Made by a program: the position numbers and the translations under genes | Assembly: GCF_003950295.1 (NCBI RefSeq) | Contig: NZ_RHNP01000013.1 | Coordinates: forward strand, 1 to 60,112 | Reading direction: 5' to 3' | Source: Loigolactobacillus iwatensis | GTDB taxonomy: Bacteria > Bacillota > Bacilli > Lactobacillales > Lactobacillaceae | DNA length: 60,112 nt | Notes under the pieces: generated by a model | What the model was told of the DNA's origin: nothing | The model's input: the letters and a program-made list of their open reading frames with translations, nothing else | The model's database searches: none | Shown here: positions 41,804 through 54,105 of the stretch, piece after piece | Layout of the letters: every line of letters begins with the position of its first letter | Position numbering within the stretch: the first letter of the stretch is position 1

Positions 41804-41945
41804 ATTTCCGAACATTATGCTAGAACGTGCGCCAAAAGTCTGGGTTCACGTGCCTAACTACAGCTAATCCAATAACCATAGTACGGTTATTAGATTAGCC
41901 TACGTTACGCAGTAAACCCAAAACCGACTTTTATCCCACTCCCGC
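41804..41945. repeat. Dispersed intergenic repeat, family R, copy 5 (uninterrupted)
   Basis: The complete form of the family: TTCCGAACATTATGCTAGAA, CGTGCGCC, TCTGGGTTCACGTGCCTAAC, a central hairpin (GCTAATCCAATAACC / GGTTATTAGATTAGC), CTACGTTACGCAGTAAACCC and GACTTTTATCCCACTCCC. It serves as the unfilled reference for the interrupted copy at 44.5-45.0 kb. Confidence 0.8.
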
Positions 41946-44516: not shown

Positions 44517-45008
44517 ACGGAGTGTGCTAAAAGTCGGTTTTGGGTTTACTGCGTAACGTAGGCTAATCTAATAACCGCACTGTGGTTATTAGATTAGCTG
44601 TAGTCGTGTTTGAAAAAGCAGATTCCTGCGGTTGCCATGTTTCAACTTGGCGATTTTCGCCGTAGTTGAATGGACAACGGATGAAGTATCAAGATTATTA
44701 GCGTACTTGACTAATAATCCTCAATTGCGGAATAGTAGCTACAACAGCCAAATCACCTTTTTCAAAGGTAATTCGTCTGTTTAGGCTAACCCTCAGAGCC
44801 ATGTTTCTTGCGGCACGAACTTTGCCACAAGAATGGCCATCGTTCGTAGCATCAAGATTATTAGCGGTCTAGGCTAATAATCCCCAATTGTGAAGTAGAA
44901 TCTAACCGCTTTTTCAAACACTTCCGTTAGGCACGTGAACCCAGACTTTTAGCACACGTTCTAGAGTAATATTCGAAAAAAATAAAAAGCTAGGACTTTT
45001 GTCCCGGC
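44517..45008. repeat. Family R copy 6, interrupted by a foldback element
   Basis: Reverse orientation relative to copy 5. The left part (44517-44603) runs from AAAAGTCGGTTTTGGGTTTA to TTAGATTAGCTGTAG. The right part (44927-45008) runs from TTAGGCACGTGAACCCAGAC to ACTTTTGTCCCGGCC. Joined together they match copy 5 across GCTGTAG/TTAGGCACG. About 323 bases are inserted between the two parts. Confidence 0.8.
44606..44921. repeat. Composite foldback element (family P) inserted in family R
   Basis: Begins GTGTTTGAAAAAGC and ends GCTTTTTCAAACAC, a perfect 14-base inverted pair. The 316-bp interior is composite. Two stem-loop modules start GCCATGTTTC and end GAATGG (44634-44674 and 44801-44832), and two copies of ATCAAGATTATTAGCG...CTAATAATCC..CAATTG (about 44690 and 44850) also lie inside. 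No ORF is present. Confidence 0.75.
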
Positions 45009-50166: not shown

Positions 50167-50241
50167 TTACGTCATTGTCATGTCTTGTTCATTAGTCGAT
50201 TCAATAATGCGTTGCCACCGTTTTCCGGGTAATTGTTGCAT
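50167..50241 (-). CDS. Leader mini-ORF (24 codons) before trpD
   Basis: A 24-residue open frame, MQQLPGKRWQRIIESTNEQD then MTMT. AAGGAG lies eight bases before the ATG, as good as for any gene here. It has one Trp codon (position 9). The first nine residues are identical to those of the mini-ORF before trpE. It may couple translation to trpD or influence the transcript, or it may simply be a remnant of the duplicated leader block. Confidence 0.5.
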   Translation of the reverse strand: MQQLPGKRWQRIIESTNEQDMTMT

Positions 50242-50264
50242 GGTTTTCACTCCTTAGTTAGATA

Positions 50265-50420
50265 GTGTTTGAAAAGGCGGTTAGATTCTGAGGATTACTA
50301 ACGATGTCGATCGGACTAAGGTGAACCGAAGTCCGAATCGCAGCCTAAACAGACGAATTACCTTTGAAAAAGGTGATTTGGCTGTTGTAGCTAACCGCAG
50401 GAAGCTGCTTTTTCAAACAC
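50265..50420 (-). repeat. Foldback element (family P), long copy before trpD
   Basis: Outer arms are GTGTTTGAAAAGGC and GCTTTTTCAAACAC; second arms are GGTTAGATTCTGAGGATTA and TAGCTAACCGCAGGAA. At 156 bp it is 45 bp longer than the related copy before trpE, with an extra interior containing its own inverted pairs (ATTACCTTT / AAAGGTGAT). It lies between the T-box terminator and the mini-ORF, so it is in the mRNA leader. Confidence 0.75.
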
Positions 50421-50477
50421 GTTTACGTCGAATCTCTTAAAAAAATCATTAAACTAGTTTCAAACTAATAATTCATT

Positions 50478-51160
50478 AAAAAAACACCGCGAAAAAAATC
50501 CGCCCATAACAATCTCTTGTTAAGGACGGATTTTTCCGCGGTGCCACCTTAATTCAGTCACGAAATTAGTCTATTCCAAAAAAAGATAAACTAACTAATC
50601 TCGTCACTACGCTTAGCAAGGGACAAACATCCCTCCGGCAACTGACGCGTGCCTGACGTCAAACTGTAGTAAGAGTGAGAAAAAAGCTGCTCAACTTCTG
50701 GAAGCTAGCTTTTTTCTCACGTTTCCATTCCGGTGAAACTGCTTCTACCTGGATTATGGAAACGTGAAATGCAAGACAGCTTCCTGCGGTTAGCTACATA
50801 AGTCGTCTCGGTCATTACATGACCAAGCCGCCTTATTAGGCTAATCCTCAGAAGCTAACCATCTTTCATTTCACTCTTTTCCATTCCGGTGAAACTGCCT
50901 CTACCTGGATGGTGGAAACGTGGCCCAAAAGACAGATTACTCCGAATAGCGACGTTCACCAAATCATCCGCTTCGCGAATAATTCGGCAAACTAGGCTAT
51001 TCTCCGTAATCTAACCGTCTTTTGGTCCACTCTTTTCGAGTTTGCCCTCGGTGGTCCATTTAATTGTCTGCGTTCGACTGCCATTCTCAGCACCGGCAAC
51101 TCTCTTTACGTGCACAACAATCTTGATCTCCACCTCATCGGTTTTTGAACGATATTTGAT
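50478..51160 (-). promoter_or_regulatory. T-box leader 2, tryptophan (UGG) specifier, before trpDCFBA
   Basis: On the minus strand: the stem I base GGTGG (complement at 51130-51134) pairs with CCACC (complement at 51050-51054); the specifier UGG (complement at 51056-51058) and an A lie just before it; stem III (ACGAGATTAGT / ACTAATTTCGT); the T-box AAGGTGGCACCGCGG (50536-50550); and a terminator pairing CACCGCGG..ATCCGTCC with GGGCGGAT...CGCGGTG plus T run (50478-50541). About 680 bases, more than twice the usual length, because a tandem foldback array sits between stem I and stem III. Confidence 0.93.
50675..51030 (-). repeat. Three foldback units in tandem inside T-box leader 2
   Basis: Units at 50675-50720 (46 bp, shortened), 50764-50874 (111 bp) and 50920-51030 (111 bp), joined by 43-45-bp linkers that are themselves hairpins (GTTTCCA...TGGAAAC). 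Outer arms differ between units but pair within each: GTGAGAAAAAAG/CTTTTTTCTCAC, GTGAAATG..AAGAC/GTCTT..CATTTCAC, GTGG.CCAAAAGAC/GTCTTTTGG.CCAC. The set is framed by AAGAGTG/CACTCTT. Confidence 0.85.
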
Positions 51161-53297: not shown

Positions 53298-53348
53298 CTA
53301 AGTTGCCATCAATTGTAAACGCCATCGTTTTCCAGGTAATTGCTGCAT
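53298..53348 (-). CDS. Leader mini-ORF (16 codons) before trpE
   Basis: Encodes MQQLPGKRWRLQLMAT. AAGGAG lies eight bases before the ATG. The first nine residues match the trpD leader mini-ORF exactly, with synonymous changes (TTACCT / TTACCC, CGA / CGG). It ends 26 bases before trpE. Possible translational coupling or leader-peptide function; not demonstrated. Confidence 0.5.
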   Translation of the reverse strand: MQQLPGKRWRLQLMAT

Positions 53349-53371
53349 AGTTTTCACTCCTTAGTTAGATA

Positions 53372-53482
53372 GTGTTTGAAAAGGCGGTTAGATTCTGAGG
53401 ATTAGCCTAGATTGCCGAATTATTCGCGTAGCGGATGATTTGGTGATCGTAGCTAACCGCAGGAATCTGCCTTTTCAAACAC
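53372..53482 (-). repeat. Foldback element (family P), 111-bp copy before trpE
   Basis: Exactly 111 bp between GTGTTTGAAAAGGC and GCCTTTTCAAACAC, which pair perfectly. Second arms are GGTTAGATTCTGAGGATTA and TAGCTAACCGCAGGAATC. It lies between the T-box terminator and the mini-ORF, as in the trpD leader. Confidence 0.85.
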
Positions 53483-53512
53483 GTTTAAGCTGAATCTCTT
53501 GAAAACTTAATT

Positions 53513-54105
53513 AAAAAAAACACCGCGAAAAAAATCCGCCCATAACAATTTCTTGTTAAGGACGGATTTTTCCGCGGTGCCACCTTAATTCAGTCACGAA
53601 ATTAGTCTATTCCAAAAAAAGATAAACTAACTAATCTCGTCACTACGCTTAGCAAGGGACAAACATCCCTCCGGCAACTGACGCGTGCCTGACGTCAAAC
53701 TGTAGTAAGAGTGAGAAAAAAGCTGCTCAACTTCTGGAAGCTAGCCTAGAATTGTAACTAATTTTCGCAGAAAATTTGTTATGATTCGTAGCTAGCTGGA
53801 AGAAGTTAACTTTTTTCTCACGTTTCCATTCCGGTGAAACTGTCTTAACCTGGATTGTGGAAACGTGAAATGCAAGACAGCTTCCTGCGGTTAGCTACAT
53901 AAGTCGTCTCGGTCATTACATGACCAAGCCGCCTTATTAGGCTAATCCTCAGAAGCTAACCGTCTTTCATTTCACTCTTTTCGAGTTTGCCCTCGGTGGT
54001 CCATTTAATTGTCTGCGTTCGACTGCCATTCTCAGCACCGGCAACTCTCTTTGCGTGCACAACAATCTTGATCTCCACCTCATCGGTTTTTGATGCTATT
54101 TATTG
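53513..54105 (-). promoter_or_regulatory. T-box leader 1, tryptophan (UGG) specifier, before trpEG
   Basis: Nearly identical to leader 2 outside the foldback array. Stem I base GGTGG/CCACC (complements at 54075-54079 and 53995-53999), specifier UGG (complement at 54001-54003), T-box AAGGTGGCACCGCGG (53572-53586) and terminator (53513-53578). Uncharged tRNA-Trp would allow trpEG expression. About 590 bases long because of two foldback units. Confidence 0.94.
53711..53975 (-). repeat. Two foldback units in tandem inside T-box leader 1
   Basis: Units at 53711-53821 (111 bp) and 53865-53975 (111 bp), joined by a 43-bp hairpin linker (53822-53864). Arms are GTGAGAAAAAAG/CTTTTTTCTCAC and GTGAAATG..AAGAC/GTCTT..CATTTCAC. 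The first unit is the full-length form of the 46-bp unit in leader 2; the second is almost identical to the middle unit there. Confidence 0.85.

Follow-up and report, generated by a model that had tools for sequence, protein, structure and literature searches.

Foldback units in the tryptophan T-box leaders of a Loigolactobacillus are copies of a dispersed family of imperfect palindromes

Introduction

The foldback units that interrupt two tryptophan T-box leaders in a window of 60,112 nt (the whole stretch of DNA analyzed) from Loigolactobacillus iwatensis are copies of a dispersed, apparently mobile family of imperfect palindromes of the Lactobacillaceae and not an invention of the T-box. 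We consider it quite probable that they are RNA-folding mobile palindromes of the REP or EFAR kind, which were inserted into stem II as an inverted and tandem array. The finding offers an origin for an otherwise puzzling insert of T-box stem II and brings to light a large family of structured repeats in lactobacilli. It also suggests that several hundred bases of mobile palindrome can be accommodated by a riboswitch.

Results and Discussion

Foldback units in two trp leaders

The genes trpE-trpG, as well as trpD and the genes downstream of it, are located on the minus strand of the window and are each preceded by a tryptophan T-box leader. According to Pfam, the gene 3′ of the first leader encodes TrpE, followed by TrpG, and the gene 3′ of the second fits TrpD; Pfam naming covers seven proteins, and trpC, trpF, trpB, trpA and accC were named by reading. 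The trpE leader is composed of stem I with a UGG specifier (by reading), an extended stem II, the T-box GGTGGCACCGCG and a terminator. Units were scored with R1, a covariance model made from 25 copies aligned gap-free over 124 columns.

53530-54093, minus strand: T-box leader of trpE; RF00230 match of 55.1 bits (E 3.3e-10), below the gathering score (93)
53865-53975, minus strand, sense: unit B of the trpE leader, 111 nt; R1 129.8 bits at 53856-53979
53822-53864: linker hairpin B/C of the trpE leader, inverted 3′ flanks CACGTTTCCA/TGGAAACGTG (by reading)
53711-53821, plus strand, opposite orientation: unit C of the trpE leader, 111 nt; arms GTGAGAAAAAAG / CTTTTTTCTCAC; R1 91.3 bits at 53707-53830
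53372-53482, plus strand, opposite orientation: post-terminator copy before trpE, 111 nt; arms GTGTTTGAAAAGG; R1 137.2 bits at 53368-53491
50494-51148, minus strand: T-box leader of trpD; two split RF00230 matches, 35.8 and 34.4 bits
50920-51030, minus strand, sense: unit A of the trpD leader, 111 nt; arms GTGGACCAAAAG / CTTTTGGGCCAC; R1 109.9 bits at 50911-51034
50875-50919: linker A/B of the trpD leader (by reading)
50764-50874, minus strand, sense: unit B of the trpD leader, 111 nt; arms GTGAAATG / CATTTCAC; R1 126.9 bits at 50755-50878
50721-50763: linker B/C of the trpD leader (by reading)
50675-50720, plus strand, opposite orientation: unit C of the trpD leader, shortened to 46 nt; R1 40.6 bits at 50671-50729
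50265-50420, plus strand, opposite orientation: post-terminator copy before trpD, 156 nt, of which 45 nt are a nested module X (about 45 nt); R1 64.9 bits at 50261-50429

R1 matches and reading confirmed five foldback units in the two leaders, four of 111 nt and one of 46 nt, as an earlier note on this DNA had described them. Their arms are complementary within a unit and different between units, again as described there (leader 1 of that account is the trpE leader). Linkers do join the units; the B/C linker turned out to consist of the inverted 3′ flanks of an inverted pair, and it forms a hairpin because the ends of units B and C are inverted. All six copies that were folded beat 200 dinucleotide shuffles each, with z values from -6.6 to -10.8; three of the six came from the window (unit A, unit B of the trpE leader and one post-terminator copy). 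Weaker or partial R1 matches were located elsewhere on the minus strand of the window, at 41818-41943 (54.1 bits) and 44736-44788 (48.1 bits). Over the 232 nt between stem II and the terminator (50478-50709 and 53514-53745) the two leaders are 100% identical (rounded) and their unit contents differ, which points to a recent exchange between the leaders.

A dispersed family in Lactobacillaceae

An explanation by the T-box alone was dropped after a genome search had found family copies elsewhere. The family core of 111 nt, written with flanks, runs from the AGAGTG arm through a 4-nt bulge, TGAGNATTAGCCTA, a variable hairpin usually carrying a GNA triloop, TAGCTAANCG and the second arm to CACGTTT. 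BLAST of the genome returned 43 family matches, while R1 gave 123 full or partial matches, a lower bound (150 of 1646 candidates scored). One 5′ end alone was present in 97 copies with at most one mismatch, compared to a single copy of the reversed control pattern. Inspection of these 97 ends by eye for a larger autonomous element bounded by them revealed widely spaced inverted pairs, one at C12 (about 2.8 kb) and one at C23 (about 4.2 kb). A second stretch of about 55 nt follows many copies (by eye).

R1 matches occurred in all eight genomes of the genus, with 12 to 95 in each of the other seven (up to 150 candidates scored per genome), and in at least 82 of 201 Lactobacillaceae genomes, representing 18 of 40 genera. 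The order sample contained matches in at least 22 of 246 genomes, nine from the same family and 13 weaker ones from other families, and none was found among the best-scoring candidates of 248 other genomes in the phylum sample. In the family, order and phylum searches filters were stricter and the 14 or 17 top candidates of each genome were scored, which makes their counts lower bounds. Twelve printed matches from outside the genus keep most constant letters and differ in arms and hairpin. Sequence was read for three of the 13 matches from other families of the order (L207-L209), which comprise the outer module only. Copies also reside on plasmids of Latilactobacillus curvatus (three records), one of them about 8 nt downstream of a DUF2188 gene (measured from the match start) and another at a distance of about 200 nt from one gene, with the next gene following after about 19 nt. 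Two copies (L110:940-1063 and L111:6120-6243) have unusual flanks in common (CACGACTACAGC / CACGACTGCAGC, then a strong hairpin) and are perhaps composites carried by another repeat. Rfam yielded no match at gathering score in the window, and searches of openly licensed papers turned up no account of this repeat family in lactobacilli.

Position and polarity of the copies

In 26 of 60 loci, drawn from three genomes that represent three genera, a same-strand stop codon lies no more than 15 nt from the 5′ end of the element; among 58 top loci the distance is at most 12 nt in 31, the two sets having five loci in common. The mirror arrangement, in which the 3′ end is at most 15 nt away from an opposite-strand stop codon, was found in 2/60 loci, a 5′ end near a divergent start in 3/60 and a 3′ end near a start in 1/60; for these counts open reading frames were called by length alone. 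The 60 loci are 20 of 133 matches in G114, hand-chosen among the better-scoring ones listed with tandem neighbours mostly left out, the best 20 of 69 in G064 and the best 20 of 52 in G005, where one partner of an inverted pair was left out. The reading frames of acetate kinase, a RidA-like gene and one further gene end inside the element (L116, L122 and L140), which thus supplies their last residues and stop codon. Orientation relative to replication was rejected as the cause of the polarity, as 32 copies are leading and 28 lagging with the origin assumed at the contig start. Such a strong polarity towards stop codons is not expected for neutral insertion and was counted against the best explanation.

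These positions would suit a host-useful RNA element at mRNA 3′ ends, acting through ribosome stalling near stops or mRNA stabilization and being mobile only secondarily. In E. coli, REPs located up to 15 nt from a stop codon lower translation (PMC12306157). However, both sites and units differ between close species, and several trp copies are reversed and do not follow a stop codon. We hold this alternative, which overlaps with the best explanation and differs from it in what selection acts for, to be somewhat improbable.

The insertion of mobile RNA-folding palindromes, which we prefer, is consistent with the distribution of empty sites. Between accB and accC the element is present in the genome of the window and in L. 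backii and absent in three relatives. Relatives lack copies at several other orthologous sites as well; at the L132 locus one of them (G002) has a degenerate look-alike. Absence in the relatives would probably reflect gain of the element and not loss. No clear target-site duplication was visible by eye in five loci compared. Insertion into existing hairpins was also considered, and by eye none was seen at the element-free junctions of the accB, L128, L132 and def loci. MITEs are characterized by fixed terminal inverted repeats and a target-site duplication; in the present family the GTG/CAC ends are nearly constant and the arms are not.

Covariation and joint change of the arms

The earlier note had offered selection on pairing, or a copying process that rewrites both arms, as reasons why the arms change in step; both received support. 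In the 25 copies, 95.1% of cells pair and 26 of 47 pairs show two-sided change, and the covariation score of 0.412 compares to 0.153 for shuffled and 0.06-0.10 for slid alignments. A divergent set with a mean identity of 59% comprised 27 of 39 copies after removal of near-duplicates, unused for R1 and from outside the two closest genomes. Here 90.5% of cells pair, a share inflated by the structure-rewarding model with which the set was found, two-sided change occurred in 40/47 pairs and the score was 0.663 (shuffled mean 0.192, maximum 0.237). Covariation runs along the whole unit, including the 27 divergent copies, and a genome-wide lack of covariation, which would have spoken against selection on pairing, was found in neither set.

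Across genera G·U outnumbers A·C, by 170 to 22 in the 3055 cells of 65 copies and by 66 to 17 in the 1269 cells of the 27 divergent ones, counts to which few columns with shared ancestry contribute much and for which no nominal p-value was used. The 65 copies are matches of exactly 124 nt and at least 82 bits taken from 180, leaving out repeats of one place, L150:1308-1431, opposite-strand matches, length variants and nested copies. Owing to this excess one strand folds, namely the strand as written in the family core, and since G·U is tolerated more than A·C, selection would act on a single-stranded fold, most likely RNA. Unpaired letters are constant, too: A4 and G19 in 65/65 copies, A34 in 63/65, and the G and A of the GNA triloop in 60/65 and 62/65. 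They are weaker in the divergent set (GNA: G 20/27, A 24/27; CTA: 17/27, 21/27 and 24/27). Because copies in the trp leaders occur in both orientations, folding of one RNA strand cannot explain all copies.

Orthologous pairs gave further insight into how arms change. Comparison of 25 L. backii loci with those of the genome of the window paired 15 by script, one of which (L275) was without a usable stretch. Three loci (L279, L283 and L288) are identical to their orthologues and L282 differs by one letter. At L273 and L286 the site is occupied by an entirely different unit, both arms included; at L150 and L284 the genome of the window has an extra palindromic module nested at TAGCTA^ACCG, and L280 shows a more complex difference. 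Between L292 and L097, eight clustered differences make the 5′ inner arm reverse-complementary to the 3′ arm over 21 letters, with flanks identical over the 60 nt compared on each side. Templating by the opposite arm would leave such a change, as would exchange with an inverted copy, and L277 partly resembles it. A symmetry search matched 56 copies, one of which is symmetrized; a process of this kind therefore exists without erasing the conserved imperfections. The two arms change together in three ways: through paired changes, through replacement of the unit as a whole and, in a single orthologous pair, through rewriting of an inner arm. Selection on pairing, hairpin-templated copying and unit exchange would act together in this.

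Further palindromic modules of about 103 nt and about 45 nt nest in units at TAGCTA^ACCG and GGATTA^GCCTA. They were seen in L094, L312 and L302 of the genome of the window, in L181 of L. backii and at 50265-50420 of the window, and their presence varies between the two close species.

Hairpin-templated copying at replication might alone keep the arms paired, in which case the family would be a selfish palindrome at the DNA level and its RNA inert. GNA triloops are very stable in DNA, and the frequency of this loop in the family and the symmetrized L292, with L277 in part, fit such a process. Yet the imperfections persist, and the single symmetrized copy of 56 possibly arose by exchange with an inverted copy. 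Moreover, neither the bias of G·U over A·C nor the polarity towards the gene strand is expected from copying of DNA, the replication orientation being even. We therefore regard a purely DNA-level palindrome as unlikely. Selection on pairing and templated copying both produce covariation and are difficult to separate; the many copies with their natural orthologous pairs provide a test bed for doing so.

Insertion into stem II of the T-box

The units had been placed between stem I and stem III by the earlier note. According to the Rfam alignment of the trpE leader and to predicted folds, they sit at the apex of stem II (CTCGAAAAGAGTG ... CACTCTTACTACAG). RF00230 aligns the trpE leader with the units as a stem II insertion and the trpD leader in two pieces. 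Matches to RF00230 with stem I, stem II and T-box/antiterminator assign both leaders to the T-boxes at scores below gathering (55.1, 35.8 and 34.4 bits), the alignment being interrupted by the insert; the uninterrupted leaders of L. bifermentans reach 98.2 and 94.4 bits. Unit B scores best in sense, whereas unit C of both leaders and both post-terminator copies score best opposite to the transcript. B and C form an inverted dimer, AGAGTG-B-CACGTTTCCA-loop-TGGAAACGTG-C-CACTCT, whose outer AAGAGTG/CACTCTT pair extends stem II. The inserts of 273 and 364 nt are self-contained, with 0.35 and 0.42 expected pairs to the remaining leader in the predicted fold.

Several copies in both orientations would thus have been inserted into the stem II apex. 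If, as predicted, the array closes on itself atop the stem II helix and leaves stem I, the base of stem II and the antiterminator free, the trp T-box most likely remains functional, its stem II being longer and branched. As regards the T-box, a tolerated insertion into a part of known variability is the simplest view: a paper on T-boxes gives a span of about 10 to 200 nt for the stem II region and notes 'curious insertions in every domain' (PMC7583486). In the present case the insert alone measures 273 and 364 nt, and its origin is identified. No T-box with such an insert was described in the openly licensed papers searched.

Close relatives were compared as well. TrpE of the window is 99% identical to that of L. 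backii JCM 18665, to which our Loigolactobacillus is close. The L. backii genome compared here (G007) is that of this strain, its trp loci being contained without any difference in L011; likewise, the two leaders of G006 are contained in L068 of L. bifermentans. Both trp leaders of L. backii carry paired units, in sets that differ from those of the window, so that the random, unpaired sequence which would have argued against pairing was not encountered. In its trpD leader, 82/83 inner letters of the C arms match the reversed B core, and the same count holds for the post-terminator arms and the reversed A core. The two trp T-box leaders of L. bifermentans are plain, with an ordinary stem II and no units. 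The distance to the T-box motif is 218 and 239 nt in L. bifermentans, 511 and 602 nt in the window and 461 and 511 nt in L. backii. The leader pattern was not matched in the other five genomes of the genus.

A T-box-specific regulatory domain, affecting antitermination timing or offering RNase III sites, had been put forward in the earlier note. Inserts of this size in stem II would delay the antiterminator, and both L. backii leaders keep theirs. Nevertheless, the units are widespread away from T-boxes, their number and identity vary between leaders and relative to L. backii, and L. bifermentans does without them. Timing or RNase III cleavage thus found no support of its own and is quite improbable, while the other suggestion of that note, a mobile palindrome tolerated at this place, agrees with the family, the element-free sites and the position in stem II. 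A family of intrinsic terminators or attenuators, to which hairpins directly after stop codons might point, is very improbable, as GTTT and no longer U tract follows the hairpin and copies are found in the accB-accC interval and, within the trp leaders, ahead of the T-box terminator.

Relation to known repeats

EFAR are palindromic repeats of Enterococcus faecalis, reportedly described by De Gregorio and colleagues in 2009, and are said to integrate into stem-loops, of which remnants stay at their termini. At the element-free junctions compared here no hairpin was visible by eye. EFAR are listed among MITEs and often adjoin coding sequences (PMC3733652), and Efa-1 is 163 bp long, present in 65 copies and forms two adjacent stem-loops (PMC2267715). 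Compared by description, EFAR and Efa-1 are likewise palindromic repeats of a member of the Lactobacillales, and the stretch of about 55 nt behind many of our copies recalls the second stem-loop. The weak matches from other families of the order (L207-L209) share the outer module of the family.

REP elements measure 20-40 bp and carry a GTAG or CGTC tag (PMC3733652), 446 of 4,072 are located within 15 nt of stop codons in E. coli (PMC12306157), and BIMEs form alternating arrays (PMC2817692). Imperfect palindromes, proximity to stop codons in some copies (26/60 within 15 nt here) and alternating arrays are common to both. In contrast to REP, which is tied to Y1 transposases, the family has units of 111 nt with AGAGTG/CACGTTT ends and no GTAG or CGTC tag, and Pfam Y1_Tnp (PF01797) had no match in the genome at E ≤ 0.001; REP with a RAYT was rejected on this ground. 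BOX, RUP and other MITE-like repeats are short, non-coding, structured and near genes (PMC3733652), as is our family, whose arms, unlike theirs, are replaced wholesale yet stay paired and for which no target duplication was seen. By analogy, the family would work like REP/BIME and resembles EFAR; lacking tag and transposase it is not filed as REP, nor is it filed as EFAR.

For mobile palindromes that fold as RNA, movement would be brought about in trans by an enzyme, and the folded strand would matter as RNA, both between cistrons and where mRNAs end on the 3′ side, similar to REP in E. coli. A wider proposal, which we put forward with little confidence, is that lactic acid bacteria have a class of structured, mobile RNA elements, family-wide in distribution, of which these are members. 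They might insert on the coding strand where translation ends, perhaps via RNA or a terminating transcript, their fold being kept by selection; in the trp operon they would have been taken into the riboswitch and would rebuild stem II by unit exchange and inversion.

Short open reading frames downstream of the leaders

Short ORFs in which KRW(Q) recurs, with a Shine-Dalgarno-like motif, were noticed in the interval from the T-box terminator to trpE. The ORFs of the window are as follows.

53298-53348, minus strand: short ORF before trpE, MQQLPGKRWRLQLMAT and stop
50167-50241, minus strand: short ORF before trpD, MQQLPGKRWQRIIESTNEQDMTMT and stop

A search that picked ORFs containing W found a short ORF with RW in 34 of 46 loci (L011-L050, L053-L057 and L068), 30 of them with KRW. 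The peptides are otherwise unlike each other, for example MKRWQF and MKRTTKRWQPTIF, each followed by a stop codon. Such an ORF could possibly encode a second Trp-sensing leader peptide.
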